Under the pieces are notes generated by a model. It saw only the letters and a program-made list of their open reading frames with translations, had not been told where the DNA came from and ran no database searches. 64,000 nucleotides of DNA, taken from assembly GCA_903878085.1 (NCBI GenBank), contig CAIRGJ010000055.1, positions 1 to 64,000 of the forward strand. The letters are read 5' to 3'. Below are positions 1 through 14,963 of the stretch, one piece after another. Made by a program: the position numbers and the translations under genes. Source of the stretch: an uncultured Hyphomicrobiales bacterium. GTDB lineage: Bacteria > Pseudomonadota > Alphaproteobacteria > Rhizobiales > Xanthobacteraceae. How positions within the stretch are numbered: the stretch's first letter is position 1; every line of letters starts with the position of its first letter.

Positions 1-753
1 ACGCTGGTCGGGGCCGGGCCGGGCGATCCGGAGTTGTTGACGCTGCGCGCGGTGCGCGCGCTGCAATCGGCCGACGTCATTCTGTTCGACGATCTGGTGT
101 CGCGCGACGTGCTTGATTTTGCCCGCCGCGAAGCGCGCAAGATGCTGGTCGGCAAGACCGGGTTTGGTCCGTCGTGCAAACAAGACGACATCAATACGCT
201 GATGGTCAGTCTGGCGAAGCAAGGCAAGCGCGTCATTCGGCTCAAGGGCGGCGATCCGCTGATCTTCGGCCGCGCGGCGGAAGAAATCGACGCCTGCAAG
301 GCGGCCAACATTACGGTGGATGTAGTGCCAGGCATTACCGCGGCGCAGGGCGCAGCGGCGAAGCTCGGTATTCCGTTGACAGATCGCGACAACTCGCGGC
401 GGCTGCAATACGTCACTGGGCACGCCCGCAGCGGCAAACTGCCGGACGATATCGACTGGCGCAGTCTCGCCGATCCAACGACCGCCACGGCGATCTATAT
501 GCCAGTGAAGACCCTTGAAGCGCTGGTCGCCAAGGCCACCGCCGAAGGCCTCGATCCGCGCACGCCATCGCTGGCGATCTCTCGCGCGACGCGGCCCGAC
601 CAGCAGGTCGTCGCTGCGCCGATTAGCGAACTGCCGCAACGCATTGCAGCGGCCAGACTGCCGGGCCCGGTGCTGGTGATGCTGGGCCGCATTATCGGGG
701 AAGGGGGCCGCACTGCTGAGAAGTCGACGGCTCCCGCGCGCCGGCAGAGCTAG
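1..753 (+). CDS. cobA: Uroporphyrinogen-III C-methyltransferase, 5' end outside window
   Basis: This enzyme transfers two methyl groups from S-adenosylmethionine to uroporphyrinogen III, giving precorrin-2 for cobalamin or siroheme. The frame is open from the first base, so the start lies upstream; 250 residues are visible. The N-terminal glycine loop VGAGPGDPELLTLRA is followed by RLKGGDPLIFGRAAEE, VPGITAAQGAAAKLGIPLTDR and the C-terminal GPVLVMLGRIIG, the ordered signatures of the SUMT family. The tail after the catalytic domain is short and basic. Because the beginning is missing, this could instead be the C-terminal half of a multidomain CysG siroheme synthase. It ends only 9 bases from the convergent stop codon of the giant TPR gene. 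The family call is firm; the domain architecture is open. Confidence 0.9.
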   Translation, partial: TLVGAGPGDPELLTLRAVRALQSADVILFDDLVSRDVLDFARREARKMLVGKTGFGPSCKQDDINTLMVSLAKQGKRVIRLKGGDPLIFGRAAEEIDACKAANITVDVVPGITAAQGAAAKLGIPLTDRDNSRRLQYVTGHARSGKLPDDIDWRSLADPTTATAIYMPVKTLEALVAKATAEGLDPRTPSLAISRATRPDQQVVAAPISELPQRIAAARLPGPVLVMLGRIIGEGGRTAEKSTAPARRQS

Positions 754-762
754 TCCGCGGCG

Positions 763-3700
763 CTAGCGGAGAATTCCCAGAATTTCGCGATCGCGTGGCC
801 GCGCGCGGCGGTCGTCCTGCCGCCAATCCCTTTGCGGACCTTGCGTCCTGTCCTGGGCACGGCTCTGCCTGCCGAGTTGCCGCGCATCTTTGCGTGCGCC
901 CTGGCGGGATGCGGGCCGGTGCTGAGCGCGCTCTTGTTTGCGGTCCTGGACGTGTTCGGTCTGCTGCGCCGGCTTGGTGCGCTGCGGATTGGCCTGCGGC
1001 ATCGGCACATCGGCCTGTTGCTCGGCGCCGGGCTGTTTGACGGCCGGTGCTTCTTTGGCCGCGACCACTTCTTTCGCCACCGGCGCTTGTGCGCGCGGCG
1101 CCGGCGCTAACGCGGCGGCCGGTTCAGGCGCCGCAGCCTCCGGGCCCACCGCCGGGAAAGTCTCCGGCGAGTAGGCGTAAGCATTGTACTGGTTGTTGCG
1201 GATCGGCTGGTTGGCTTCCTGGATAATGCGGTCGCCCTCGCGGCGGTTCTCGTAAGCGCTGCCGCGCCCGCTGAAGGTCACCGCATAAGCAGGTTTCGCC
1301 TTGCTCACGGTGTCGGCGGTGACGGCGGTGCGGTCGTAATCGTTCTTATCGTAGGCGACGATGCCGCGGTCGACGAAGGCGGTGGCGAAGTTCGGGTTGA
1401 GCTTGATCGCCTGGTTCATGTCCTGGGTGGCACGTTCGAAATCGCGCTTGTCGTAATAGGCGAAGGCGCGATTGTAGAGCGCCAGCGCATAATTCGGGCT
1501 GATCGCCAGCGCCTGGTTGTAATCGGCGACCGCGCGGTCGAATTCGCCGCGGTTGCGATAGGCGAAGCCGCGATTATTGAAGGCCCGCGCGTTCTTCGGA
1601 TCGAGCTTGATGGCCTGGTTGAAATCCACGATCGCGACGTCGAACTCGCTCTTGTTGTCGCGGGCGAGGCCCCGCGCGTTGTAGGCGGCGGCATAATTCG
1701 GATCGAGCTTGATCGCGGCGTCGAAATCCTTGATGGCGCGGTCGAAGTCGCGCTTTTCGTAATAGGCGTTGGCGCGATTGTAGAGCGCGACCATGTAATT
1801 GGCATTGAGCTTGATCGCCTCGCCAAAATCGGCGATGGCGCGATCCGCGTCCCCCTTATTGCGATAGGCGAAGCCGCGGTTGTTGAACGCGACGGCGTCT
1901 TTCGGATCGAGCTTGAGCGCGGCATCGAAATCGGCGATGGCGCGGTCATTGTCGCCGCGCATGCCGTGGCTGGTGCCGCGATCGGTGAAGGTGCCTGAGG
2001 CGCCTGGGTTCAGCCGCAGCGCCTGGTCGAAATCGGCGATAGCGTGCTCCAGGTCGCCTTTCAATCGGTAAACCAAGCCGCGATTGCCGAAAGCCGCTGC
2101 GTTCTTGCCGTCCAGCCGGATCGCCTGGCCGAAATCGAGGATGGCGCGGTCGTAGTCGCGTTTGTCGCGAAGGCTAAGGCCGCGGTGATAGTAGGCCAGG
2201 TCGAAATTGGGGTTGAAGCGGATCGCCTCGCCGAAATCGGCGATAGCGCGGTCGAAGTCGCGCTTTTCGTAATAGGCGTTGCCGCGCTGATAGAAGCCGA
2301 GCGAGAACTTGGCGTCGAGCTTCACCGCTTCGCCGAAGTCGGCGATGGCGCGATCAATATCGCCCTTGAGCCGGTAGGCGATGCCGCGATTGAAAAACGC
2401 CATGGCGTTGGCGGGGTCGAGTTTCAGCATGTCGTTGAAATCGGCGATGGCGCGGTCATTGTCGCCCTTGGCGCCGTAGCTAAGTGCGCGGTCATAGAGC
2501 GCCACGGCGAAGCCGGGATCGAGCTTCAGCGCGGCGTCGAAATCGGCGATGGCGCGGTCGTAGTCGCGCTTGAATTCCAGCGCGTTGCCGCGATTGTAAT
2601 AGGCCACCGCATAATTCGGGTTGAGCTTGATGGCCTGGTCGAAGCTCTGGATGGCGCGATCGAGGTCGTGCTTGTCGCGTAGCGCCAGGCCACGGTTGTA
2701 GAAGGCGAGGCTGTTGCGGCCGTCGAATTTCACCGCCTGCTCGAAATCGGCAAGCGCGCGGTCGACGTCTCCTTTGGCGGCATAGGCGACGCCGCGGTCG
2801 TTGTAACCCTGGGCATAGTCGGGACTGAGCTTGAGCGCCTGGCTGAGGTCGGCAATGGCGCGGTCGAAATCGCGCCGGTTGGCATTGGCGTTGCCGCGGT
2901 TGTTGAAGGCCAGGGCATCGGCCGGATTGATCTTGACGGTGCTATCATAGTCGGCGACGGCGGCGGCATAGTCGCCTTTGTCGTATTTGGCGTTGCCGCG
3001 GTTATAGAAGGCGATCGCATAGCCGCCATTGAGCTTCACCGCCTGGTCGTAATCGGCAATGGCACGATCGAGCTGGCTCTTGGCCGCATAGGCGATGGCG
3101 CGGTTGTTGAAGGTCGGCGCGTATTGCGCATTGAGCGCGACTGCCTGGTCGAAGTCGGCAATGGCGCGGTCGGGCTCGCCCTTGAGCCCGTAGGCGACGC
3201 CGCGGTCGTTATAGCTGAGGGCCTGATCGGGATTGAGCTTTATCGCCTGGCTCAGGTCGCCGACCGCTTTGTCGAAATCGCCTTTGCCGGCAAGCGCGTT
3301 GCCGCGGGCGCTGTAAGCCTGCGCCAGCTTGGGATTGAGCTTGACCGCCTGGCTGTAGTCCTCGATGGCGCGGTCGTAATCGTGCTTCTCGTGATAGGCG
3401 ATGCCACGATTGTAGAAAGCGTTGGCGTTCTTGCCGTCGAGCTTGGCGGTCTGATCGAAATCCTGGATGGCGCGGTCGTAGTCCTCGCGTTCATAGCGCG
3501 CGACGCCGCGATCGTAAAAAGCCATGGCGTCCTGCGGATTGAGCCGGATGGCCTGATCGTAGTTGGCGATGGCCTTGTCGTAATTGCGCCGCTGGAAGAA
3601 CGTATTGCCGCGATTGTAGTAGGCCGCCGAGAAGTTCGGATTGATCTTGATGGCGCGGTCGAAGTCGGCAGTGGCGCGGTCGAGATCGTTCTTCGAGGCG

Positions 3701-6700
3701 AAGTTGATGCCGCGGTCGTTATAGGCCAGCGCGAAAATCGGGCTCAGCCGGATCGGTTGCGCCAGCTCCATGGCGCCGCGGTCGTAGCCGCGCTGGCCCC
3801 TGACATCGTTGCCGCGCGGGCTCGAGGCAAAGCTATAGTTCGAATTGATCTTGATCGCGGCTTCAAAGTCGCTGATGGCGTGTTCGAAGTCGTGCTTTTC
3901 GTAAAACGCGATGCCGCGGTCGTGATAGGCGAATGAATCCTTGCCATCGAGCTTGATCGCCTGGCTGAAGTCGGCGATGGCGCGGTCATGGTCGTTCTTG
4001 TCGAAATAGGCATTGGCGCGGTTGTAATAGGCGCCGGCGTAATTCTCGTTCAGCTTGATCGCTTCGGCGAAGTCGGCCACCGCGCGGTCGCTGTCGCCCT
4101 TGGTGCGATAGGCGAGACCGCGATTGTTGAGCGCAATGGCGTTCTTCGGATCGAGCTTGATCGCGTGGTCAAAGTCCTGGATGGCATGTTCGGTGTCGCC
4201 CTTGGCGCCATAGGCAATGCCGCGGTCGTAGAACGCCCGCACATAATTCGGGTTCAGCTTGATCGACTGGCTGAGGTCGTCAATGGCGCGCGTGTAGTCG
4301 CGCTTGTCGAAAAAGGCGTTGCCACGGTTGCTGAAGGCCAGCGCGTAGTTCGGGTCGATCTTGGCCGCCTGGCTGAAGTCGGCGATGGCGCGATCGTTGT
4401 CGCCCTTGGCGCGATAGACCAGGCCGCGGTTGTTGTAGGGCGGCGCCAATTTGCCGTCGAGCCTGATCGCCTGGCTGAAGTCGTCGAGCGCGCGGTCGTA
4501 GCTGCGCATGTTGCTCAGCGCCAAGCCGCGTGAATTATACGCCGAGGCGTTGCCGCTATTGAGCCGGATGACCTGGTCGAGATCCTTGAGCGCCCGGTCG
4601 TGAAAGCCGAGGGCTTCCAGCGCCTCACCGCGGTTGAGCAGCGCCAGCGCAAAGCCGGCATTGATGGAAACCGCCTGCTCGAAGTCCTTGAGCGCGCGCT
4701 CCGTCTCGCCTTTGGCTTTGAACGCCATGCCGCGGCTGTTGAGCGCGACGTCGTAGCGCGGATTGGCCTTGATGGCGCGGTCATAGTCGGCGACGGCGCG
4801 GTCGAGCTCGCCTTTGTTCTGATAGATATTGCCGCGATTATTGAGTGCGGCCGCGAATCCGGGATCGAGCTTGATGGCCTGATCGAGGTCGCCGATCGCC
4901 CGGGCGAGGTCGCCTTTGCGCTGGAACAGAATTGCGCGACTGTTGAACACACCGGCATAAGTCGGGTTGAATTTGATCGCCTGCTCGAAGTCCTGCAATG
5001 CGCGGTCGATCATGCCGCGCGCGGCGTAGGTATTGCCGCGCTCCGTGAAGGCCGCCGCATATTTCGGATCGAGCTTGATGGCGAGATCGTAATCGCGGGT
5101 GGCGAGAGTGTAGTCGCCCTTCTGCTGATAGGCATTGCCGCGATCGACATAGCCAGCGGTGAGTTTCGGGTCGAGCCGCAGCGCTTGATCGAAATCGGCG
5201 ATGGCGCGGTCGAAGTCGCGCCGTTCGCGATAGGCGACGCTGCGGCCGTGGGCCGCCAGCGCATCGCGCGGGTCGATCCGGATGGCCTGGGTCAAATCGG
5301 CGATGGCGGCGTCTAATTCGCGGCGCTCGAAATGCGCCATGCCGCGGTTGTAATAGGCGGCAGCAAAATTTGGGTTGAGCTTGATGGCCAGGTCGAAATC
5401 CGGGAAGATCCGGTCATCCTCGCGCAGATTGAGATAGCTGAAACCGCGCGCATTGTAGGCGGCCGCGTTCTTCGGGTCGAGCTTGAGCGCGGCCGTGAAG
5501 TCGTTCACGGCGTTCGCGTAGTCCTTCTTGTCTTGATAGGCGAGGCCGCGGCTCAAATAGGCGCCGGCATAGTTCGGATTGGCCTTGATCGCCTGATCGA
5601 AGTCGGCAATGGCGCGGTCGTAATTCTGCTTCTTCTGGAACGTGTCGCCGCGGTTGCTCAAGGCGGCGGCGAACTTCGGATCGATGCGCAGCGCTTGATC
5701 GAAGTCGGCGATGGCGCGGTCGCTGTCGCCTTTGCCGTTATAGGCCAGCCCGCGGACGTTGAAGGCGGCGGTGTAATCAGGTTTGCTGTTGATCGCCTGG
5801 TTGAGGTCGGCAATGGCACGGTCATAGTCGCGCTTGTCGTATAATGCGTTGCCTCGTTCGAAAAAGGCAAAGGCGTTGGTGCCGTCGAGCTTGATCGCCT
5901 GGTCTAGATCGGCCAACGCGCGCTCGTTATCACTGCGGCCGCGATAGGCCATGCCGCGATGATAGTAAGCCAACGCCTGCTTCGGATCGGATTTGATGGC
6001 CTGCGTAAAGTCGCCAATGGCGCGCTCATCGTCGCCCTTGGCGTGGAGCGCTTGACCACGATTGTAGAAGGCCAGCGCGTTCTTCGGATCGATCCGGATC
6101 GACTGGTCAAAATCTGCGATTGCCTTGTCGGGCTCGCGGAGGGCGGCGTACGTAATGCCGCGGTTGTAATACGACAGCGAATCCTTGGGGTCGAGCTTGA
6201 TCGCCTGGGACAAGTCGCGCATCGCCATGTCGTATTCGTGTTTCTCGAAATACGACACGCCGCGGTCATAATAGGCGAGCGCATATTCGCTATCCAGCCG
6301 GATGGCCTGGTCGTAGTTCTGAATGGCCCGGTCGTAGTCGCGTTTGTCGTAGAACGCGTTGCCGCGATTGTAATAGGCCAGCACGTAATTACCGTTGAGC
6401 AGAATGGCCTGATCGTAGTCCTTGATGGCGCGGTCGATTTCGCCGCGGTTGCGGTAGGCAAGGCCGCGGTTGTTGTAGGCAAAGCCGTCGCGCGGATCGA
6501 GCAGAATGGCCTGGTCGAAATCCTGAATTGCGCGCTCGACGTTGCCTTTCGCGGCGTAGGCGATGCCGCGGTCGTTGAGCGCCAAGATGAATTCCGGATT
6601 GATCTTGATCGCCTGGTCGAAGTCTTGGATTGCGCGTTCGTAGTCGCGGATATCGCGATAGGCGAGGCCGCGGCTGTGATAGGCCACGGCGTCGTTGCCA

Positions 6701-7335
6701 TTGAGTTTGATGGCGCGGTCGTAGTCGGGAATGGCGCGGTCGGGCTCGCCCTTGGCGCGGTACGCCATGCCGCGGTTGAAATAAGCCAGCGCCGAATTCT
6801 GGTTCAAGCCGATCGCAATATTCAGGCTGGAGATGGCGTGTTCGTAATCGCGTTTGTCGTAATAGAGGTGGCTGAGCGTGCTGAGCGCGACGGCATTGTG
6901 CTTGTCGTATTTGATCGTCTGCTCGAGGTCCTGGCGTGCGCGATCGGCATCGCCGCGGTCGCGGAACACCAAAGCACGGTTGAAATAGGCGTCGGCATTG
7001 CTCGGATTGAGCTTGATTCCTTCATCGAAATCGCGGATCGCGCGGTCGGCGTCGCTTTTGATGCGATAGGCTTTGCCGCGGTTGAAATAGGCGGCGGCCT
7101 TTTCCTTGGCGCTGACTTCGTTATCAGCGTCGGCGTTGTGCTTCTTCTTGGTGGCGGGTTTCGACGACTGCTGGTCGATGATCGCGGTGCAGTTTTCGAT
7201 ACGAAGATCGGCGGAAACGTCCTCGCTCGCGCAGGTCTTTATTTCCTCGCGCGTTGCGGCGAGCGCATGGGGCGCCGCCGACAGCAAAGCCGCTGTCGCC
7301 GCACAAATGCAGAATTGTCGCGCTCCCCAGTTCAT
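763..7335 (-). CDS. Giant exported protein of 58 consecutive TPR units
   Basis: This 2190-residue protein begins with a Sec-type signal peptide (hydrophobic stretch around residues 9-20, likely cleavage after ALAA near 27). A short segment with two cysteines (residues 35 and 49) and a charged linker follow. From residue 81 to 2052 there are 58 tetratricopeptide units, each exactly 34 residues with no insertion or deletion; the common form is AYYNRGxAYxxKGDYDRAI followed by ADFDQAIKLDPKNA. Unit 33 (about residues 1169-1202) and units 57-58 are degenerate. The last 138 residues are Ala/Pro-rich, then strongly Arg/Gln-rich and basic. TPR solenoids bind peptides or proteins; an array of this length would form a superhelix of several turns. 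A periplasmic or surface scaffold is an inference; no catalytic domain is visible and the partner is unknown. Confidence 0.93.
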   Translation of the reverse strand: MNWGARQFCICAATAALLSAAPHALAATREEIKTCASEDVSADLRIENCTAIIDQQSSKPATKKKHNADADNEVSAKEKAAAYFNRGKAYRIKSDADRAIRDFDEGIKLNPSNADAYFNRALVFRDRGDADRARQDLEQTIKYDKHNAVALSTLSHLYYDKRDYEHAISSLNIAIGLNQNSALAYFNRGMAYRAKGEPDRAIPDYDRAIKLNGNDAVAYHSRGLAYRDIRDYERAIQDFDQAIKINPEFILALNDRGIAYAAKGNVERAIQDFDQAILLDPRDGFAYNNRGLAYRNRGEIDRAIKDYDQAILLNGNYVLAYYNRGNAFYDKRDYDRAIQNYDQAIRLDSEYALAYYDRGVSYFEKHEYDMAMRDLSQAIKLDPKDSLSYYNRGITYAALREPDKAIADFDQSIRIDPKNALAFYNRGQALHAKGDDERAIGDFTQAIKSDPKQALAYYHRGMAYRGRSDNERALADLDQAIKLDGTNAFAFFERGNALYDKRDYDRAIADLNQAINSKPDYTAAFNVRGLAYNGKGDSDRAIADFDQALRIDPKFAAALSNRGDTFQKKQNYDRAIADFDQAIKANPNYAGAYLSRGLAYQDKKDYANAVNDFTAALKLDPKNAAAYNARGFSYLNLREDDRIFPDFDLAIKLNPNFAAAYYNRGMAHFERRELDAAIADLTQAIRIDPRDALAAHGRSVAYRERRDFDRAIADFDQALRLDPKLTAGYVDRGNAYQQKGDYTLATRDYDLAIKLDPKYAAAFTERGNTYAARGMIDRALQDFEQAIKFNPTYAGVFNSRAILFQRKGDLARAIGDLDQAIKLDPGFAAALNNRGNIYQNKGELDRAVADYDRAIKANPRYDVALNSRGMAFKAKGETERALKDFEQAVSINAGFALALLNRGEALEALGFHDRALKDLDQVIRLNSGNASAYNSRGLALSNMRSYDRALDDFSQAIRLDGKLAPPYNNRGLVYRAKGDNDRAIADFSQAAKIDPNYALAFSNRGNAFFDKRDYTRAIDDLSQSIKLNPNYVRAFYDRGIAYGAKGDTEHAIQDFDHAIKLDPKNAIALNNRGLAYRTKGDSDRAVADFAEAIKLNENYAGAYYNRANAYFDKNDHDRAIADFSQAIKLDGKDSFAYHDRGIAFYEKHDFEHAISDFEAAIKINSNYSFASSPRGNDVRGQRGYDRGAMELAQPIRLSPIFALAYNDRGINFASKNDLDRATADFDRAIKINPNFSAAYYNRGNTFFQRRNYDKAIANYDQAIRLNPQDAMAFYDRGVARYEREDYDRAIQDFDQTAKLDGKNANAFYNRGIAYHEKHDYDRAIEDYSQAVKLNPKLAQAYSARGNALAGKGDFDKAVGDLSQAIKLNPDQALSYNDRGVAYGLKGEPDRAIADFDQAVALNAQYAPTFNNRAIAYAAKSQLDRAIADYDQAVKLNGGYAIAFYNRGNAKYDKGDYAAAVADYDSTVKINPADALAFNNRGNANANRRDFDRAIADLSQALKLSPDYAQGYNDRGVAYAAKGDVDRALADFEQAVKFDGRNSLAFYNRGLALRDKHDLDRAIQSFDQAIKLNPNYAVAYYNRGNALEFKRDYDRAIADFDAALKLDPGFAVALYDRALSYGAKGDNDRAIADFNDMLKLDPANAMAFFNRGIAYRLKGDIDRAIADFGEAVKLDAKFSLGFYQRGNAYYEKRDFDRAIADFGEAIRFNPNFDLAYYHRGLSLRDKRDYDRAILDFGQAIRLDGKNAAAFGNRGLVYRLKGDLEHAIADFDQALRLNPGASGTFTDRGTSHGMRGDNDRAIADFDAALKLDPKDAVAFNNRGFAYRNKGDADRAIADFGEAIKLNANYMVALYNRANAYYEKRDFDRAIKDFDAAIKLDPNYAAAYNARGLARDNKSEFDVAIVDFNQAIKLDPKNARAFNNRGFAYRNRGEFDRAVADYNQALAISPNYALALYNRAFAYYDKRDFERATQDMNQAIKLNPNFATAFVDRGIVAYDKNDYDRTAVTADTVSKAKPAYAVTFSGRGSAYENRREGDRIIQEANQPIRNNQYNAYAYSPETFPAVGPEAAAPEPAAALAPAPRAQAPVAKEVVAAKEAPAVKQPGAEQQADVPMPQANPQRTKPAQQTEHVQDRKQERAQHRPASRQGARKDARQLGRQSRAQDRTQGPQRDWRQDDRRARPRDREILGILR

Positions 7336-7535
7336 ACCACCTCATTCGCCCGGTCACAGACTGCTGCGCCGGACTAGGTTTCTGAATCCAAGTGGGAATT
7401 TAGATTGAAAATGGCGGCGAGAGTCGCAGGAGCGCAGGTATTGCCCGGATTAACATTAATCTGCACCGCTGCTTTGCGTAGAACGCATTAATGAATTCGG
7501 GTTAACGCGATTGCCATGTCGAACCGCAAAATGTT

Positions 7536-7570
7536 TGTGGCCGCGACGAATCTGAATCGTCGCGGCCACA
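7536..7570 (-). terminator. Hairpin terminator after the CHAP-like gene
   Basis: Perfect 14-base arms (7536-7549 and 7557-7570) surround a 7-base loop. It lies 25 bases beyond the stop of the leftward CHAP-like gene. On the minus strand it is followed by a short T-rich run, so it probably ends that transcript before the TPR gene promoter region. Confidence 0.7.
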
Positions 7571-7595
7571 AGCATTTGAAGATGAGAGAGGGCGG

Positions 7596-8177
7596 TTACT
7601 TGAGCGCGGCGGCGCGGGCGTTGGCGGCCATTTCCTCAAGCACGTAGTCGGGCGGCATCACGTAGGCCATGACCTTTGCCTTAGGATAGACCGACTGCGT
7701 CACCGTGGGGCCGTGATTGCCCGACACCACGATCGGGTTGCCCTGGCCGTCGGTGCCGCGCACGACGCCGACGTGGCCGCTATTGGGACCTTTGCGGTAC
7801 ATGATGGCGATGGCGCCGACGCGCGGGCCATCGAGCTTCTTGCCGAAGTCGAGGAAGGAGCGGGCGGCGCGCGATTTGGTGCCGTTGCCGCCGGCTTTAT
7901 GCAGCACGAAATTCATGAAATCGGCGCACCACAGCTGGGTCGGGAGACCGAGCTGTTTGGCGGTGCGGCCGCGCCAGCGGAGCGCTTCGAGCAGCACGCC
8001 GGAGGCGCCGGGCACCTGTGCCGCCGCTTCGGCGGCGTCGGTGCGGCTGCGCGCCATCGTCTCGAGCGGTTCGGTGTTGGCGAAGCGTTCGACGCGCTTT
8101 TCACCGGTCGCATGCGCCGGCGCAGCGACGCCGAGCGCGAAAACACAAATGACCAAGGTTGAGATCGATCGCTTCAT
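7596..8177 (-). CDS. Secreted CHAP/NlpC-like (TIGR02594-type) protein
   Basis: This 193-residue protein has a signal peptide (MKRSISTLVICVFALGVAAP, cleavage near AHA). Its C-terminal half has the order expected of papain-like CHAP/NlpC amidases: a cysteine in LWCADFMNFVL (around residue 83), a histidine in SGHVGVV and a polar residue in SGNHGPTV. Members of this family are thought to cut peptidoglycan peptides or related amides in the periplasm; the activity here is inferred from the triad order only. It is transcribed alone and ends in a strong hairpin. The stretch of roughly 210 bases between it and tonB shows no gene. Confidence 0.75.
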   Translation of the reverse strand: MKRSISTLVICVFALGVAAPAHATGEKRVERFANTEPLETMARSRTDAAEAAAQVPGASGVLLEALRWRGRTAKQLGLPTQLWCADFMNFVLHKAGGNGTKSRAARSFLDFGKKLDGPRVGAIAIMYRKGPNSGHVGVVRGTDGQGNPIVVSGNHGPTVTQSVYPKAKVMAYVMPPDYVLEEMAANARAAALK

Positions 8178-8388
8178 GTTGCCACTTCCTGCCGACTCAT
8201 CAGCCGGGACTTGCCTAGCCTGTTGTCTCTTACCGCTTCACGCTACTAAAGAAGTGCAGCGTGCTGCCGTGTGGTTAACCCACGTATCTTGTCTGCTTAA
8301 TCGGCGCAGTTGCAAGTTAAGGCGCGCGTTATTGCCCCTTCGCTTGGCGTTATGGTTAAAGCTAAAATTTTAATTAAATGCGATGCGC

Positions 8389-9144
8389 TTAGCGCATGTT
8401 GTAGCGGATCGGCACGACGATCGCGATCTGCGAACCGGAAACTTCCGGCGGCGGTGGCGGCAATGGCTGCGCGCGCTCGACCAGCGTCAGCGTTTCGCGA
8501 TCGAGCAGGCTGGAGCCCGAACTGTGCACGATGCGAGCGTTGTGCACGCCGCCGCTGCGATCGATCGAAAATGCAAGTTGTGCGACGCCGGCCTCGCCAC
8601 GCGATTGTGCTTCGGACGGATAGCGCTTGTAGCGCTCGAGCCGCGATACCAGTTGCGAGCGCCAATCCGCTGCATTTGAGTTGCCGGCCGCACCCGGCGA
8701 TGGTGCCGCGGCACTAGCCGCTTGCTGATCGGCGGCGCTCGGCGCACGGGCGACAGATTGTTTCTTCTGCTTTGGGTTGGGCTCTTTCGGCTTTTCGATC
8801 ATTTTTGGCGGCGGTGGCAACACGACGTCCGGCTTTGCCACTTCAGGCGGCGGCAACTCGACTTTTTCAATGGGCTTTACCGGTTCGGGCTCCGGCTCTT
8901 CGGGGCGACTCGCGAGTTGATCGGGGGGGGCGTCGTTGGGAACGGTCGTTGGCGCGACCGCGACCGGCGCCAGATCGATCATGATCAGCGGGGCGTTCGC
9001 CATCAAGTCGGAGCTTTCGTTCCACTTCGCCAGTAGCGCCGCGGCGCCGGCGCCGTGAAAGGATAACGCCAGCACAAAGCAAATGGCCCAGCGCGCCGAG
9101 TCCGGCCAACGCCGTGGCGCCGCTGCGGCGCGGTCGGCGGTCAT
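8389..9144 (-). CDS. tonB: TonB energy transducer
   Basis: TonB couples the inner-membrane proton-motive force, via ExbB-ExbD, to outer-membrane receptors. The 251-residue protein has one N-terminal membrane anchor (ICFVLALSFHGAGAAALLAKW), a long proline- and Glu/Lys-rich periplasmic spacer (EPEPEPVKPIEKVELPPPE and a PNPKQKK segment) and a C-terminal TonB domain with RYPSEAQSRGEAGVAQLAF and the terminal VPIRYNMR. Its start overlaps the exbD stop by four bases (ATGA), indicating translational coupling. It is the last gene of the PepSY-exbB-exbD-tonB operon and presumably serves the siderophore receptor encoded divergently. Confidence 0.93.
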   Translation of the reverse strand: MTADRAAAAPRRWPDSARWAICFVLALSFHGAGAAALLAKWNESSDLMANAPLIMIDLAPVAVAPTTVPNDAPPDQLASRPEEPEPEPVKPIEKVELPPPEVAKPDVVLPPPPKMIEKPKEPNPKQKKQSVARAPSAADQQAASAAAPSPGAAGNSNAADWRSQLVSRLERYKRYPSEAQSRGEAGVAQLAFSIDRSGGVHNARIVHSSGSSLLDRETLTLVERAQPLPPPPPEVSGSQIAIVVPIRYNMR

Positions 9145-9563
9145 GGCTTGTCGGCTTCCAAGCCGACCAGCGCGACATGCAAATATCCTGCGCTGCGCAG
9201 CTCGTTCATCAGCGTCATTAGGTCGCCATAGGGCACGGCCTTATCGGCGCGCAGGAATAGGCGTTGCTCTTTGTCGCCGGACGCCGCCTTGTCGAGCGAA
9301 GGCGCGAGCGCAGCGCGGTTCACCGCATCATTGTCGAGCGTCAGGCTCAGATCCGATTTGAGCGTCAGGAACAGCGGCTTGTCGGGCCGCGAACTACGCT
9401 CGGCATTGGCCGCCGGCAGATCGACCGAGATATCCACGGTGGCCAACGGCGCCGCGATCATGAAAATGATCAGCAGCACCAAGATCACGTCGATGAACGG
9501 CGTGACGTTGATCTCGTGGACTTCGCTTAAGGCATCGTCGCCGTGGTCGAGACGTACGCTCAT
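9141..9563 (-). CDS. exbD: ExbD biopolymer transport protein
   Basis: ExbD is the small single-span partner of ExbB in the TonB energising complex. With the start at MSVRLDHGDD the protein is 140 residues, normal for the family. It has the conserved EINVTPFIDVILVLLIIFM segment, where the Asp in the membrane helix is the proton-carrying residue, and a periplasmic domain ending near PYGDLMTLMNELRSAGY. An upstream extension is open but would enter exbB, so the shorter start is chosen; it lies four bases beyond the exbB stop. The gene is immediately followed by tonB with an ATGA overlap. Confidence 0.93.
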   Translation of the reverse strand: MSVRLDHGDDALSEVHEINVTPFIDVILVLLIIFMIAAPLATVDISVDLPAANAERSSRPDKPLFLTLKSDLSLTLDNDAVNRAALAPSLDKAASGDKEQRLFLRADKAVPYGDLMTLMNELRSAGYLHVALVGLEADKP

Positions 9564-9567
9564 GGTG

Positions 9568-10458
9568 TCACTCGGCCGCCGCCACGCCACGCCGCCGTTC
9601 GGCCGGGCGATTGAAAGCACCGCGATCGAGATCGCGGCTGATTAGGCGCAGGATTTCCGCCGAGGCGTCGGCGTGCAGCGCGCGATAGCCGGCGATCCAA
9701 CGCGAGAACATGTTGTACATCACCACCGCCGGGATCGCCGCGACCAGGCCGAGCGCAGTGGCGAGAAGCGCTTCGGCGATGCCGGGTGCCACCACCGCGA
9801 GATTGGTGGTGTGCGATTTCGAAATGCCGATGAAGGCGTTCATGATGCCCCATACCGTGCCGAACAGGCCGACGAAGGGGGCGGTGGCGCCGATGGTGGC
9901 GAGAATGCCGGTGCCGCGGATCATTTGCCGTCCGGCGGCGGCCTCTAATCGCTCCAGCCGCGAGGCGATGCGCTCTTTCACGCCGTCCGGCGACAGTGCG
10001 TCGGCCGATTGCCGCAACTCGGTATCGGCGGCGCCGATCAGCGTCGAGGCCGCGTCCTTGCCGCCTTGCAGATCGCGCACGTCGCTCCAGGCGCGCGCTG
10101 CGCCGAGCGCGGCAATCGCTTCGCCCAAGCGGCGGCGGGCGGCGAACAGTTCGATCGCCTTGGCGAACCAGATGGTCCAGGTCAGCACCGATGCGAACAC
10201 CAGCCCGACCATCACGGCTTTGACGACGATGTCGGCGGCCATGAACATGCCCCAGGGCGACAGATCGCGCGGCAGCTTGAGCAGAACGTCGGAAGCGGCC
10301 GGCTCCGGCGTTTGCGCCAGGGCAAAAGCGGGCAGCAGCAAGCCAACGGCAAGCGCCACGAGCGGCAGCCAGGAATTGCGACGATTACGGTGCATTTCGC
10401 CAAAGCTCATTTTGCCGGTCCACTTGCCTAGGGTCACATTGTAACGCATTTGCGTCAT
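9568..10458 (-). CDS. exbB: ExbB proton channel subunit of the TonB system
   Basis: ExbB forms the pentameric channel that powers TonB. The chosen ATG overlaps the stop of the upstream PepSY gene (ATGA), giving 296 residues; alternative starts lie 48 and 63 bases downstream. The protein has a cleavable-looking hydrophobic N terminus (WLPLVALAVGLLLPAFALAQ), the long-N-terminus architecture common in alphaproteobacteria. Three membrane spans follow: around MFMAADIVVKAVMVGLVFAS, then GILATIGATAPFVGLFGTVW, and ALLATALGLVAAIPAVVMYN. The last two contain the TolQ/ExbB-family signature. Confidence 0.92.
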   Translation of the reverse strand: MTQMRYNVTLGKWTGKMSFGEMHRNRRNSWLPLVALAVGLLLPAFALAQTPEPAASDVLLKLPRDLSPWGMFMAADIVVKAVMVGLVFASVLTWTIWFAKAIELFAARRRLGEAIAALGAARAWSDVRDLQGGKDAASTLIGAADTELRQSADALSPDGVKERIASRLERLEAAAGRQMIRGTGILATIGATAPFVGLFGTVWGIMNAFIGISKSHTTNLAVVAPGIAEALLATALGLVAAIPAVVMYNMFSRWIAGYRALHADASAEILRLISRDLDRGAFNRPAERRRGVAAAE

Positions 10459-11609
10459 TCCGCAGGCCGCAATTGTGCGGCCCCGCTTTTGACGGTCTTG
10501 CGGCCGGCACGCTTGCGCAGCCACATAATGATGCCGGTGACCGCGAAAATCGTCGGGAATATGCCGGTCAGAAACACGATAATCGCCCACACCGGGCCGC
10601 TGTGACTGCCTTCATGAATCCAGCGGATCCAGGACGCCGCGCGGTCACCGGATTGCGGAACGATGGTCGATACGGCGCGCCCGCTGCGGTCATCGACCAT
10701 CACGGTCACCGTTTCGTCGTTGGCGGCGAGCGTCAGCTGCACACGCCAGGCTGCGCTACGCGCGCCTTCGCCGCGCGCCTGCACCGGGAGAAACAAAGTT
10801 GTCGGATTGGTGTTCGGCTCGGCCTGCCGTGCGATCTCGAGCGCGCGGTCGGCGTTGAGCGTGGTCTGCAGCACGACATCGCCGCCGAAGCCGGCGCGCG
10901 CGTTAGGCGCCATGGCCGCGACCGAAGACATGAACTCCCGTCCTGTCTGCGGAAACGAGAGGTAGATGCCGGTAAGCGACACCGCCGCCAGCGGCAGCGC
11001 AATCCAGAAGCCCAGCAAATGATGCAGGTTGAAGGTGACGTATGGCGACCGCGTCCAGCGCAGGCCGCGTAGGAAACCGCGGTTTCGCGGCCACCACAGC
11101 CAGATGCCGGTGAGCGACAGCGTCAGCATGCCGACGCCGGCCCAGCCGACGATCTGCCGGCCATTGTACTGCGGAAGCGTCAGATTCTCGTGGAATACAT
11201 GCAGGAAGCCGATGAAAGAGGCGCGGAAATCCATCACGTCGAGGATTGCGCCAGTTGGCGGATCGAGGAAGACCGTCACGGTGCGCGGCGGCCCGCCGCC
11301 GTCGCGCGATTGGCCCCGCGCCATCACGCGCACCGGCCAGCCCGGCTCCGGATAGCGCAGCATCGTCGCCCGTAAGTCGCCAGGCTCCTTGGCCACCGCC
11401 TCGGCGGCCTTGGCGAGGTAGACGCCCGGCGGCAATGCCGCCTGCGCGCCGGTCACCGCATAACGCTGTGGATTGATCAGCGTGTCGATCTCGTCGTGCC
11501 AGACCAGCAGCCCGCCGGACATCGAGATCGGGATCAGCAGCACGGCCAATCCGACGCCGATCCACAAATGAACATTGAGCCAGAGGCGGCGGAGAGTTGC
11601 GGCGCGCAT
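10455..11609 (-). CDS. PepSY-associated inner-membrane protein (PiuB-like)
   Basis: This 384-residue membrane protein starts with the pattern MRAATLRRLWLNVHLWIGVG and has four apparent membrane spans, with two PepSY-type periplasmic stretches (near WHDEIDTLINPQRYAV and VMVDDRSGRAVSTIVPQ). Proteins of this group (PiuB, FoxB, FegB-like) are iron-regulated inner-membrane proteins that take part in siderophore use, some as ferri-siderophore reductases. It is the first gene of the exbB-exbD-tonB operon and faces the siderophore receptor across a promoter region with an Irr-like box. A GTG 33 bases upstream is an alternative start; neither has a clear ribosome binding site. Confidence 0.85.
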   Translation of the reverse strand: MRAATLRRLWLNVHLWIGVGLAVLLIPISMSGGLLVWHDEIDTLINPQRYAVTGAQAALPPGVYLAKAAEAVAKEPGDLRATMLRYPEPGWPVRVMARGQSRDGGGPPRTVTVFLDPPTGAILDVMDFRASFIGFLHVFHENLTLPQYNGRQIVGWAGVGMLTLSLTGIWLWWPRNRGFLRGLRWTRSPYVTFNLHHLLGFWIALPLAAVSLTGIYLSFPQTGREFMSSVAAMAPNARAGFGGDVVLQTTLNADRALEIARQAEPNTNPTTLFLPVQARGEGARSAAWRVQLTLAANDETVTVMVDDRSGRAVSTIVPQSGDRAASWIRWIHEGSHSGPVWAIIVFLTGIFPTIFAVTGIIMWLRKRAGRKTVKSGAAQLRPAE

Positions 11610-11723
11610 ATCGATGCCCGGGTTGGTCGGCAGGTGGGGCACCTATAGCAGCCTTGGCGACGATGAAAACAAAAAAATGCGGAAAAATTGCAGTTTTTAA
11701 GTATTCCAAACAGTATAAAGTAG

Positions 11724-11740
11724 TTTAGAAATATTCTAAT
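11724..11740. promoter_or_regulatory. Irr/ICE-box-like palindrome in divergent iron promoter
   Basis: The sequence reads TTTAGAA-ATA-TTCTAAT; the inner 15 bases are a perfect palindrome. It resembles, from memory, the iron control element bound by Irr in Rhizobiales (TTTAGAA-N3-TTCTAAA). It lies in an AT-rich 255-base region between the PepSY-exbB-exbD-tonB operon and the TonB-dependent receptor gene, where it could control both directions. A half-site TTCTAAA occurs at 11831-11837. Confidence 0.7.
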
Positions 11741-11864
11741 TAAAGAATAATACCATAAAATCAATAGTTCTTGACGCAGAATACAGATCATGGTTTCAAA
11801 TATAACCAATAATCGTACTGATTATTGTGATTCTAAAGTATAGTAATCAGTCAGGGGCGTCGAG

Positions 11865-14267
11865 ATGAACAGCATTACGTCAAGTATTCGGTCCGAAGCT
11901 TTCAGTCATCGTGGCGCCGCGCCAGTGGTCGTGAAATCGAGCGACGGCCACATCCGGGTCGAAACCCAGATCAAGTCGCAGTTCGGTTCGAGCCCCGCTT
12001 ACGAAAACACCCGCTTTCAATCCGGCAACCGCGCCTCATTATTGGCGGCGGTCAGTCTGGCATCGCTGATGGGGGCCACCGTGGCGTCGGGCCAGGAGTC
12101 CGGCATGCAGTTGCCGACTATCGACGTCACCGGCGACCAGAGTGGCGGCTATCAGGCTACCCAGCAGTCGATCAACCGTCTGCAGACCCCGCTCAAAGAC
12201 ACGCCGCAGACGGTCAACGTCGTGACGCAACAGGTCATCCAGGAAAAGCGCGCCGTCAGCATGGAAGACGCACTGCGCACGGTGCCCGGCATCACGTTCA
12301 GCGCCGGCGAGGGTGGCCAACAGGGCGACAGTCCGATCATCCGCGGCTTCGCCGCGCGCGGCGACATCTTCCGCGATGGTTTCCGCGATCCGGGCTGGTA
12401 CAGCCGCGATCTGTTCAACACCGACCGGGTCGAGGTCTACAAAGGTCCGTCAGCCTTCGCCTTCGGCCGCGGTTCGACCGGCGGCGCGATCAACAATGTC
12501 ACCAAGCTGCCGACCGGTTCGACCTATGTCGAAGGCACCGCGACCGGCACGTCCGTCGGCGGCTATCGCGCCGACGTCGACGCCAGCGGCAAAAAGGGCA
12601 ACGTCTCCGGCCGGATTGCGTTGCTCTATCAGGATCAGCCGACGCCGACCCGCGACAATGTCTGGACCAAGCGCTGGGGCGTTGCGCCGTCGATCAGCGC
12701 GCCGCTCGACGACGACACCAAGGCAACGCTGTCCTACATCTACCAGGGCGAAGAAGGCGCGCCGGACTACGGCGTGCCTTATCTGCCGCAGCCCGGCTAC
12801 AGCACCAAGACTGGTGCGCTGGTCAATCCCGGCTACTACGGCAACGGTTCGGCAACCACGCCGGTGCCGATCAACCGCCAGAACTGGTTCGGCATCGCCA
12901 CCGGGCCGATGCGCGACATCGTCAATACCGAAACCCACATCCTGACCGCCACCGTCGAACGCGACATCGGCAACAATTTCAAGCTGACCAACGGCACGCG
13001 CTATATCGACAACGATCGTTTCTCGCGCGTCACCGCGCCGCGCGGCCTCGGCAATGCCGCGGGCCAGGCTTTCACCAGCGGAACGACGGCCGGCGCCGGC
13101 GGCCTGGGCATCGGCTATCCGGTGGATTCAATGACGCTCGCCCGCGAACGCCGCGAACGCGAAACCGACGCGACGTACGCCGTCAACCAGACCGACCTCA
13201 CCGGCAAATTCGATACCGGCATTGTCAATCACACGGTCGCGACCGGCGTCGAGTTGTCGCGCGAAACGCGGAGCCAGACGCGCACCGATCTGTGCGTCGC
13301 CACGTCGCCGGCCTGTTACACCAGCCTGTCCTATCCGTCGGCGGGCGGCGTCGCGGCCACGGGCTTCACGGTGGTGGCGCCAAACAGCACGTTGTCGACC
13401 AACCTTGCCGCCTACGCCTCCGATCAGATGAAGGTCACGAAGTATTTCGAGCTGCTCGCGTCGCTGCGTTTCGACCGCTATGCGACGCACTACGTCGATG
13501 CCAGCGCGGCCGCCGGTCAGAACGACCTTAAAAGCACCGACAATATGTTCAGCTACCGCTTCGGCGGCGTCTATCATCCGACGGCGAATTCGAGCCTCTA
13601 TGTCGCGTACGGAAATTCGTACAATCCATCGGCCGAGCTCGGCACCTTGTCGACCGGCACCGTGTCGCTGGCGCCGGAAAAGAACGTATCCTACGAGGCC
13701 GGCGTCAAAGTCGACGTGCTCGACAGCCAGCTCAGCCTGACCGGCGCCGTGTTCCGGATCGACAAGACCAACTTGCGCGTCCCGCTCGATCCGACGGTGA
13801 CAGGCGCCGCGGCGATCCAGATCCTCGACGGTCTTGCGCGTTCGCAGGGCGTGGAGTTCGGCGTTGCCGGCAAGCTCACCGACAAGTGGCAGATCACGGC
13901 CGGCTACAGCTATATCGACACGCGCATCGTCCAGAACAGCGATCCCGCGCAACTCGGCCGCTGGCTTCCGAACGCTCCGCGCAACAACATCACGCTATGG
14001 ACCAGCTACGAACTGCCGCACGGTCTCACGATCGGCGGCGGCACGACGTATCAGTCGGATGCTTTCGCCAACACGCAGAACACCGCCTACGTGCCGGAAT
14101 TCTGGAAGTTCGACGCAATGGTCAGCTACAAAGTCGATCCCAAGTCGACCATCCAGCTCAACATCTACAACATCACCGACGTGCTGTATTACGCGCAGTA
14201 CTATGCCGGCCACGCCGTGCCGGGGTCGGGCCGCTCGGCCTCGTTGTCTTACCGATATCGCTGGTAG
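11865..14267 (+). CDS. TonB-dependent siderophore receptor (Fiu/PiuA-like)
   Basis: This outer-membrane beta-barrel takes up ferric siderophores. The 800-residue protein has an unusually long stretch (about 57 residues) before its hydrophobic signal segment ASLLAAVSLASLMGATVASG. A plug domain follows (LQTPLKDTPQTVNVVTQQVI, then IRGFAARGDIFRDGFRDPGW, and VEVYKGPSAFAFGRGSTGGA), then a barrel ending in ...RSASLSYRYRW with the usual terminal aromatic residue. There is no extra FecA-type signalling domain. The directly following PiuC-type hydroxylase mirrors the fiu-ybiX and piuA-piuC pairs, which suggests a catecholate-type substrate. Divergent from the TonB operon; an Irr-like box lies upstream. 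Confidence 0.92.
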   Translation: MNSITSSIRSEAFSHRGAAPVVVKSSDGHIRVETQIKSQFGSSPAYENTRFQSGNRASLLAAVSLASLMGATVASGQESGMQLPTIDVTGDQSGGYQATQQSINRLQTPLKDTPQTVNVVTQQVIQEKRAVSMEDALRTVPGITFSAGEGGQQGDSPIIRGFAARGDIFRDGFRDPGWYSRDLFNTDRVEVYKGPSAFAFGRGSTGGAINNVTKLPTGSTYVEGTATGTSVGGYRADVDASGKKGNVSGRIALLYQDQPTPTRDNVWTKRWGVAPSISAPLDDDTKATLSYIYQGEEGAPDYGVPYLPQPGYSTKTGALVNPGYYGNGSATTPVPINRQNWFGIATGPMRDIVNTETHILTATVERDIGNNFKLTNGTRYIDNDRFSRVTAPRGLGNAAGQAFTSGTTAGAGGLGIGYPVDSMTLARERRERETDATYAVNQTDLTGKFDTGIVNHTVATGVELSRETRSQTRTDLCVATSPACYTSLSYPSAGGVAATGFTVVAPNSTLSTNLAAYASDQMKVTKYFELLASLRFDRYATHYVDASAAAGQNDLKSTDNMFSYRFGGVYHPTANSSLYVAYGNSYNPSAELGTLSTGTVSLAPEKNVSYEAGVKVDVLDSQLSLTGAVFRIDKTNLRVPLDPTVTGAAAIQILDGLARSQGVEFGVAGKLTDKWQITAGYSYIDTRIVQNSDPAQLGRWLPNAPRNNITLWTSYELPHGLTIGGGTTYQSDAFANTQNTAYVPEFWKFDAMVSYKVDPKSTIQLNIYNITDVLYYAQYYAGHAVPGSGRSASLSYRYRW

Positions 14268-14285
14268 GGGTAGGGGCATATTATC

Positions 14286-14963
14286 ATGATGATCCACATC
14301 CCCAATGTTCTGACGGCCGAGCAGGTGGCGCGCTGCCGCGACGTGATGACCCGCGCGGCCTGGATCGATGGCCGCGCCACCGCCGGGCATCAGTCGGCAC
14401 AGGTGAAGAAAAATCTTCAGCTTCCGGAGACAGCGCCGGAAGCGCGCGAACTCGGCACCATGGTGATCGAGGCTTTGGCGCGCAGCAATCTGTTCATGTC
14501 GGCGGTGCTGCCGAAGCAAGTGTTTCCACCGCTGTTCAATCGCTACGACGCCGGCATGACCTTCGGTTCGCACGTCGACAATTCGATCCGCGGCCATGCC
14601 AACGGCATCCGCATTCGCACCGACGTGTCGTCGACTTTGTTTATCTCCGGGCCCGAGGATTATGACGGCGGCGAACTGGTGGTCGAGGACACCTACGGCC
14701 AGCACACCGTCAAACTGCCGGCCGGCGACATGATCGTCTATCCGGCGACGTCGCTGCACAACGTGACACCGATCACGCGCGGCTCGCGGATCGCCTCGTT
14801 CTTCTGGACCCAGAGCATGATCCGCGACGAGAGCAAGCGTTCGCTGCTGTTCGACATGGACATGGGAATCATCAAACTGAACCGCGATCACCCCGAGCAT
14901 GCCTCGGTCGTCGAATTGACCTCGGTTTATCATAACCTGCTGCGGCAGTGGGCCGAGCTGTAG
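14286..14963 (+). CDS. piuC: PKHD-type Fe(II)/2-oxoglutarate hydroxylase (PiuC/YbiX)
   Basis: This 225-residue cytoplasmic protein belongs to the prolyl 4-hydroxylase-like double-stranded beta-helix oxygenases. It shows the iron ligands H and D in [11 protein letters not shown] and the distal H in [17 protein letters not shown], where the Arg is the predicted 2-oxoglutarate anchor. PiuC/YbiX genes sit next to catecholate siderophore receptors in many proteobacteria; their substrate is not settled as far as I know. It starts 18 bases after the receptor stop, so the two are almost certainly co-transcribed. Two adjacent ATG codons are possible starts. Confidence 0.9.

Follow-up and report, generated by a model that had tools for sequence, protein, structure and literature searches.

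On the minus strand of a 64,000-nucleotide stretch of DNA from an uncultured Hyphomicrobiales bacterium (contig CAIRGJ010000055.1 of assembly GCA_903878085.1; hereafter 'the window') lies a gene for an exported protein of 2190 residues that carries 58 consecutive units, all but one of them resembling the tetratricopeptide repeat (TPR). Given its architecture, its conservation among relatives and its gene neighbors, we propose, with a probability of about one half, that this giant serves in the periplasm as a scaffold of fixed length for enzymes acting on peptidoglycan. As judged from gene order and co-occurrence, its main client is most likely the exported CHAP-domain protein encoded next to it.

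The repeat array is genuine. When the protein is cut every 34 residues, a single register holds from residue 81 to residue 2052, leaving a C-terminal tail of 138 residues (2053-2190). A hidden Markov model (HMM) of the unit, trained solely on 285 ungapped units from five orthologs of other genera and run unfiltered, identifies 58 domains in the window protein, 56 of which lie exactly in register while two start one residue late. Two of the units score weakly, with 5.9 bits for unit 33 and, over a 21-residue envelope, 15.1 bits for unit 57. The Pfam profile TPR_1 scores 1262 bits, with 47 stretches that pass individually, and the tandem 34-residue helix-turn-helix units that match such profiles place the protein in the TPR clan. 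A preliminary description of this DNA had reported an exported 2190-residue protein with 58 in-register units and a 138-residue tail. This observation is confirmed, with export judged by eye and the strand now added. Because the same array occurs in genomes listed as one contig (G004, locus L053; G011, locus L049), a collapsed or invented array is unlikely. Recent tandem duplication of units was considered and rejected, as mean identity between units stays at 0.416-0.449 across lags 1-19 without a clear period (the top pair reaches 0.74). NCBIfam names such as MamA, PrsT or PilW, also returned for the giant, are attributed to repeated TPR scoring.

A signal peptide, judged by eye, supports the earlier assignment of the protein to the exported class. 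The sole cysteines of the mature window protein, C35 and C49, are kept in 30/30 aligned rows, and the disulfide suggested by this sequence pair would suit an oxidising compartment. The five other-genus rows have a second cysteine pair close to the C-terminus. Separately, an extra pair of cysteines, 27 residues apart, resides within the array (residues 592-623) of L043, L044 and L049, where it perhaps forms an inter-unit staple. An antisense open frame of 472 codons (5959-7377, plus strand) also runs over the array, and is probably a shadow of repeat codon use. A scan of positions 7300-8450 for sigma-70 promoters found none, with 0.4 expected by chance.

Two pieces of the giant were modeled with AlphaFold2 from a 24-row alignment. 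The model of residues 27-760 starts with an N-cap hairpin, continues through a linker of low confidence, and then shows 40 helices that make up 20 TPRs (mean predicted local distance difference test, or pLDDT, 94.0; predicted template modeling score, or pTM, 0.66). The model of residues 965-1474 comprises 12 helices, a helix-free unit 33, and then 16 helices (mean pLDDT 94.9, pTM 0.81). In place of helices, unit 33 is predicted to have two short strands, at block pLDDT values of 85, 79 and 66. Its mean entropy among orthologs (1.61) is the second-highest of any unit, the highest being that of unit 57 (1.68), and its length varies from 31 to 35 residues across aligned orthologs that nevertheless retain a QRGYDR-type motif. 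Unit 33 is probably not a TPR, and in the model it looks like a TPR that has been remodeled into a joint. At the other end of the second arm, the motif of units 57-58 (YENRREGDRIIQ in the window) is recognizable in 30/30 rows. The 58 units of sequence are therefore 57 TPR-like units plus one joint, and the architecture is one of 32 TPR units, the joint, 23 TPR units that are clear from their sequence, and a degenerate end, such that the second arm has 23-25 units. Thus, the '58 TPR units' described previously stand as a register, but one of them is not predicted to fold as a TPR; structure prediction in segments, as had been suggested, gives helices for units 1-20, 27-32 and 34-41, with unit 33 as the non-helical exception.

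No unit has been gained or lost within units 1-58 in any of 29 full-length orthologs, which derive from Pseudolabrys (24) and from three sister genera of the family (5) and are 48-81% identical to the window protein. Most small gaps fall at the joint, where they span 1-3 residues, or around residues 1995-2026; others are scattered, and the largest covers nine residues at position 477 in L050. Moreover, sequence comparison indicates that the units are orthologous by number. With orthologs of 81, 68, 67, 57 and 49% identity, the same-number unit is the best match for 57, 49, 47, 24 and 11 of the 58 units, respectively, and across these five comparisons same-number units are 0.84-0.51 identical versus 0.41-0.42 for units of other numbers. 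The ratio of nonsynonymous to synonymous substitution rates (dN/dS) of the giant is 0.16-0.34 against five orthologs, which supports purifying selection. Constant length had been taken earlier as a sign of selection for a continuous solenoid; the constant core and the selection hold up, but the solenoid appears to be interrupted at unit 33. The unit count leaves out proteins cut by contig ends (L042 in G035; L054 in G017; L068 and L158 in G009; and L159, a second copy in G028), as well as L155 (G156) and L156 (G245), whose frames are broken, and L072, a frame of 1834 codons. These last three loci, with two abutting frames, two overlapping frames and the one 1834-aa frame, are either pseudogenes or assembly errors.

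A shorter array, in contrast, does change by whole units. As a control we used a second exported TPR protein from this genome, 770 aa long, for which 25 of 27 genus orthologs are usable, L188 and L204 being incomplete; each is the best match in its genome, so a paralog is possible. Fifteen of the 25 have changed by whole 34-residue units, eight are unchanged, and two (L209 and L211) have odd-sized gaps. All 15 changed orthologs are 46-54% identical to the control, corresponding to 15 of 20 at or below 54% and none of five at or above 55%. Since control changes are confined to this range, the fair comparison is with the five sister-genus giants at 48-53% identity, none of which has changed in units 1-58. 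In the control family itself (L186-L213), whole units are missing at recurring places near residues 455 and 504 in related rows, which makes it a contrast case for repeat evolution.

What the scaffold would carry is suggested by the gene upstream. Its product scores 32.4 bits with PF05257 (cut-off 26) and 97.9 bits with TIGR02594 (cut-off 70.55), and thus belongs among the CHAP-domain proteins. The cysteine and histidine that we take to be catalytic are kept in 32/32 rows, consistent with a presumed hydrolase activity. Between signal peptide and domain there is a conserved segment, approximately RFAN..P.E...RSR.DAA in Pseudolabrys. A search of PDB sequences with the CHAP protein returned nothing at an E-value of 1. 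CHAP orthologs (E <=2e-71) are present in 28 of 43 Pseudolabrys genomes, and these are the identical set that holds TPR orthologs (E <=6.4e-97); the other 15 lack the giant. Fisher's exact test gives p 7e-12 for this co-occurrence, a value that ignores ancestry and linkage. On a quick tree of exbB plus exbD, neighboring genes described below, the TPR-CHAP module would need at least four changes between presence and absence, with two TPR-less rows at the midpoint root, the rest nested, and 10 of 29 inner branches open. This tree makes a single gain followed by losses a possible history.

Among the sister genera, the giant is additionally linked to a class A penicillin-binding protein (PBP). In 5/5 loci with a complete TPR gene, this gene lies head to head with a class A PBP gene, which is followed by a gene for an exported-looking protein of about 340 residues. 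In G156 and G245, where the TPR frames are broken, TPR and PBP genes reside close to contig ends, an arrangement that is compatible with this order but does not prove it. All four PBPs scanned carry both PF00912 (transglycosylase) and PF00905 (transpeptidase), as expected of class A enzymes, while the one protein scanned against the PBP1A family TIGR02074 (from L067) falls below its cut-off (484.7 versus 508.75 bits). The closest group of such PBPs (70-79% identical to the query, plus the query genome itself) is found in exactly the seven non-Pseudolabrys genomes that have a giant, intact or broken, and every one of these genomes holds a more distant PBP copy as well; the query came from G231, which favors its kin. 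Three genomes without the giant (G046, G063 and G153) have two PBP matches each. A close CHAP homolog occurs on the contig of the TPR and PBP genes in four of the seven genomes (G231, G053, G278 and G083), with two genes between, and in G156 one resides beside the PBP gene. As CHAP is linked to the giant in both settings and the PBP solely among the sister genera, CHAP is the common partner. Together, the two linkages point to peptidoglycan, rather than to the lipopolysaccharide (LPS) or nucleic acid that had been suggested previously as contacts of this protein. Regarding the exported-looking protein of about 340 residues beside the PBP (L067 15367-16389; L151 233-1303), neither copy has a Pfam match at 0.001, and the L067 copy has no NCBIfam match.

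From these observations we infer the following mechanism. The exported protein, its N-terminus closed by the cysteine-paired hairpin, would fold in the periplasm as two TPR superhelices of 32 and 23-25 units that are separated by the 34-residue non-helical joint. The CHAP protein would dock its conserved linear segment into the TPR groove of units 4-10, which is itself conserved, and in the sister genera the giant would also work with the dedicated class A PBP. The array would fix both the distance and the angle between its binding sites. Designed TPRs complete one superhelical turn every eight repeats (PMC7885266), and hence adding or removing one repeat would rotate the distal part by about 45 degrees, an eighth of a turn, which would keep the core count where it is. 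By the same arithmetic, 32 units correspond to four turns of eight, and 23-25 units to about three. The pitch of a TPR superhelix is 60-72 Å, and the usual periplasm is narrower than 43-51 nm. Because 57 repeats would extend for about 43-51 nm, the protein would have to either kink at the joint or run parallel to the wall. A more specific version of this mechanism is a two-armed cell-wall ruler, in which rigid superhelices of approximately whole turns and a joint of nearly constant length hold the hydrolase (and the synthase in the sister genera) at a set distance and angle, with selection on geometry fixing the repeats between joints and leaving the ends free. We regard this version as unlikely.

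Several observations weigh against the scaffold proposal. First, the total number of units is not constant. The sister genera add about three units and a cap after unit 58, with 60-61 units counted in four proteins and 59 in one, where Pseudolabrys has a variable tail; the total in those genera is thus about 61. Second, human proteins, too, commonly keep a conserved number of repeats (PMC3995336). Third, the control gives no contrast within Pseudolabrys, where giants are 57-81% identical; its losses are common to related rows and so represent few events. Fourth, the partners are imperfectly linked. In G245 the CHAP gene is on another contig, and G056 has the giant and the PBP with only a distant CHAP (46%). 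The next-best PBP match, at 68%, is from a genome without the giant, a small gap from 70%, and PBPs of the wider type occur in 71 of 391 family genomes, with no Pseudolabrys among them. Finally, gene neighborhood is the sole functional link, a single event can remove adjacent genes together, and the CHAP domain may act on other substrates.

Four other explanations deserve consideration. In one, the groove binds a long polymer directly, such as glycan strands or exopolysaccharide, and the number of units sets the length that is held. The positions that we take to be concave are mostly variable among orthologs (mean entropy 1.41, versus 0.64 for core positions), the exceptions being most such positions of units 4-10, together with individual units such as 41, 44, 52, 55 and 56. 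This variability argues against a polymer-binding surface along the array, even though the groove is single and very long, the neighboring genes belong to peptidoglycan-acting families, and the TPR domain of PgaA is said to bind poly-N-acetylglucosamine (PMC9384988). We consider direct polymer binding unlikely.

An explanation that we find improbable is that the giant belongs to the adjoining TonB-ExbB-ExbD machine as an envelope TPR protein that aids an energized transporter. Some TonB systems do include an envelope TPR protein, and we at first favored this partnership from the gene order exbB-exbD-tonB-CHAP-TPR. Of 27 genus loci that reach the start of the TPR gene, 25 have all four upstream genes and two are cut by contig ends, and exbB is found in 27/28 genomes with the giant versus 6/15 without it. 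However, CHAP begins 211 bases after tonB and the TPR gene 260 bases after CHAP, and the tonB locus also exists without the module. Among six TPR-less tonB loci, four have tonB and cobA 38-70 bases apart (aligned ends), one has no cobA hit, and one is at a contig edge. Since tonB lies beside cobA in module-less loci, the TPR-CHAP module sits between these two genes, and TonB appears to be a neighbor rather than a fixed partner. Furthermore, tonB, exbB and exbD gave no hit at the sister-genus TPR loci within the stretches covered. On the evidence of these two kinds of loci, the TonB partnership was dropped. The window from 8389 to 14963 encodes, besides exbB-exbD-tonB, a PepSY protein, a siderophore-type TonB-dependent receptor and a PKHD-type hydroxylase, and it resembles an ordinary iron uptake locus.

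Less probable again is the proposal of the preliminary description that the basic tail attaches a surface or periplasmic scaffold to peptidoglycan, LPS or nucleic acid. Both a signal peptide and a basic tail are present in the window protein, and some form of envelope scaffold is likely, but no tail column reaches 85% conservation among 25 rows. The tail is absent from L060 and L062, has few basic residues in L157, and is replaced by units and a cap in the sister genera; the tail anchor was rejected on this variation. Finally, a neutral relic, in which the TPR gene was amplified but no function depends on its length, or else an array created by assembly, would fit the absence of the giant from 15 genus genomes and the array end that differs between genera, but is very unlikely given a core count that is unchanged at 48-53% identity and in one-contig genomes, the low dN/dS, and the whole-unit changes of the shorter control. 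We retain the peptidoglycan-enzyme scaffold as our preferred explanation, and its parts are located in Table 1.

Table 1. Positions in the window of the giant TPR gene, its parts and its neighbors.
Feature	Position	Strand	Basis
Giant TPR protein gene	763..7335	minus	ORF list; 2190 aa, ATG start
Signal peptide, residues 1-26, ...PHALA/A	7258..7335	minus	judged by eye; no lipobox seen
N-cap helical hairpin, residues 27-54, cysteine pair C35/C49	7174..7257	minus	alignment and model
TPR arm 1, units 1-32, residues 81-1168	3832..7095	minus	register and HMM; helices predicted for units 1-20, 27-32
Units 4-10, longest conserved-unit run, most concave positions included; candidate binding turn	6076..6789	minus	entropy
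Unit 33, residues 1169-1202, predicted non-helical joint, conserved QRGYDR-type motif	3730..3831	minus	model and alignment
TPR arm 2, units 34-56, residues 1203-1984	1384..3729	minus	register and HMM; helices predicted for units 34-41
Units 57-58, degenerate, motif YENRREGDRIIQ, possible second joint by sequence	1180..1383	minus	HMM and alignment
Variable tail, Ala/Pro then Arg/Gln, residues 2053-2190	766..1179	minus	alignment
CHAP-domain protein, TIGR02594, 193 aa, exported (by eye), module partner	7596..8177	minus	domain scans
tonB, exbD, exbB, upstream neighbors in genus, also present without module	8389..10590	minus	domain scans
Tetrapyrrole methylase (cobA by judgement), cut by contig start, other module flank	1..753	plus	domain scan

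Arrays of this size are rare. Among the best 80 loci from a scan of 84,980 species, L071-L101 carry 41-61 units, except for two contig-edge fragments (30 and 16), and the remaining 49 have 24 or fewer; this list favors loci close to the query, and the unit-counting profile was made from the window, such that distant arrays may be undercounted. A family survey matched 39 of 391 genomes at 1e-58, from 5 of 47 genera, although at least four of the 39 have short frames only; the other-genus matches in G216 (852 aa), G270 (499) and G375 (357) are short frames of this kind that are not counted as giants, although the one in G216 may be a broken giant. Among 397 genomes of an order survey, only the window's own passes 1e-70. 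A second giant frame (L159 on G028:C526, also listed as L100) extends for 1912 aa up to a contig edge in the genome of L050. It is 57-64% like the window protein in two stretches, and represents either a paralog or a stray contig. Natural TPR arrays are given as 3-16 repeats (PMC8944806) and those of human proteins as 1-28 (PMC7279152), and a search of one open-licence literature collection found no mention of a Pseudolabrys tetratricopeptide protein. If our proposal is correct, the giant would be a TPR array far beyond these published ranges, whose core repeat number is testable as a functional length, and unit 33 would be a natural example of a repeat converted into a joint with its length kept.

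Among structures, the giant resembles the consensus designed TPR (CTPR) superhelices, which share the regular 34-residue units. CTPR chain 9qhb (272 residues) superimposes on the N-terminal model with a root-mean-square deviation of 1.5 over 268 columns and a TM-score of 0.94 by target, although the designed units are identical to each other. The best PDB neighbors of the joint-spanning model, by E-value, are the TPR domains of O-GlcNAc transferase and SPINDLY, from which the giant differs in having no glycosyltransferase domain among its Pfam matches and far more units.

In function, the giant is best compared with two Escherichia coli proteins that work with cell-wall enzymes. NlpI is a TPR lipoprotein that scaffolds hydrolases, among them MepS and other endopeptidases; it cooperates with the PBP1A/LpoA machinery, although it makes no direct contact with PBP1A (PMC7049810). 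MepS binds it through a disordered N-terminal segment (PMC11211486). Likewise, the giant is an exported TPR protein tied to a small putative peptidoglycan hydrolase and to class A PBP work, and the conserved segment before the CHAP domain resembles in its placement the binding segment of MepS. Differences are also evident. NlpI has four TPRs and is a dimeric outer-membrane lipoprotein, whereas the giant has 57 TPR-like units plus a joint, and no lipobox was seen by eye in the window N-terminus. Its partner is of the CHAP rather than the NlpC/P60 family, and the link here is one of gene neighborhood. The NlpI model NF008391 of NCBIfam scores 539.8 bits (cut-off 250), spread over 27 stretches, the best of which covers profile positions 79-157 of 297; repeats inflate this score. 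LpoA is likewise elongated and linked to a class A PBP, which it reaches across the periplasm, and has a TPR-like N-terminal domain (PMC4111904). It binds PBP1A through a C-terminal domain resembling substrate-binding proteins, and no such domain is among the 24 Pfam families that match the giant at 0.001. By analogy, the giant may work like NlpI and LpoA while probably being a member of neither family, and if so would give these Alphaproteobacteria a scaffold linking enzymes that cut the wall with enzymes that build it, the role that the two proteins are known for in E. coli.

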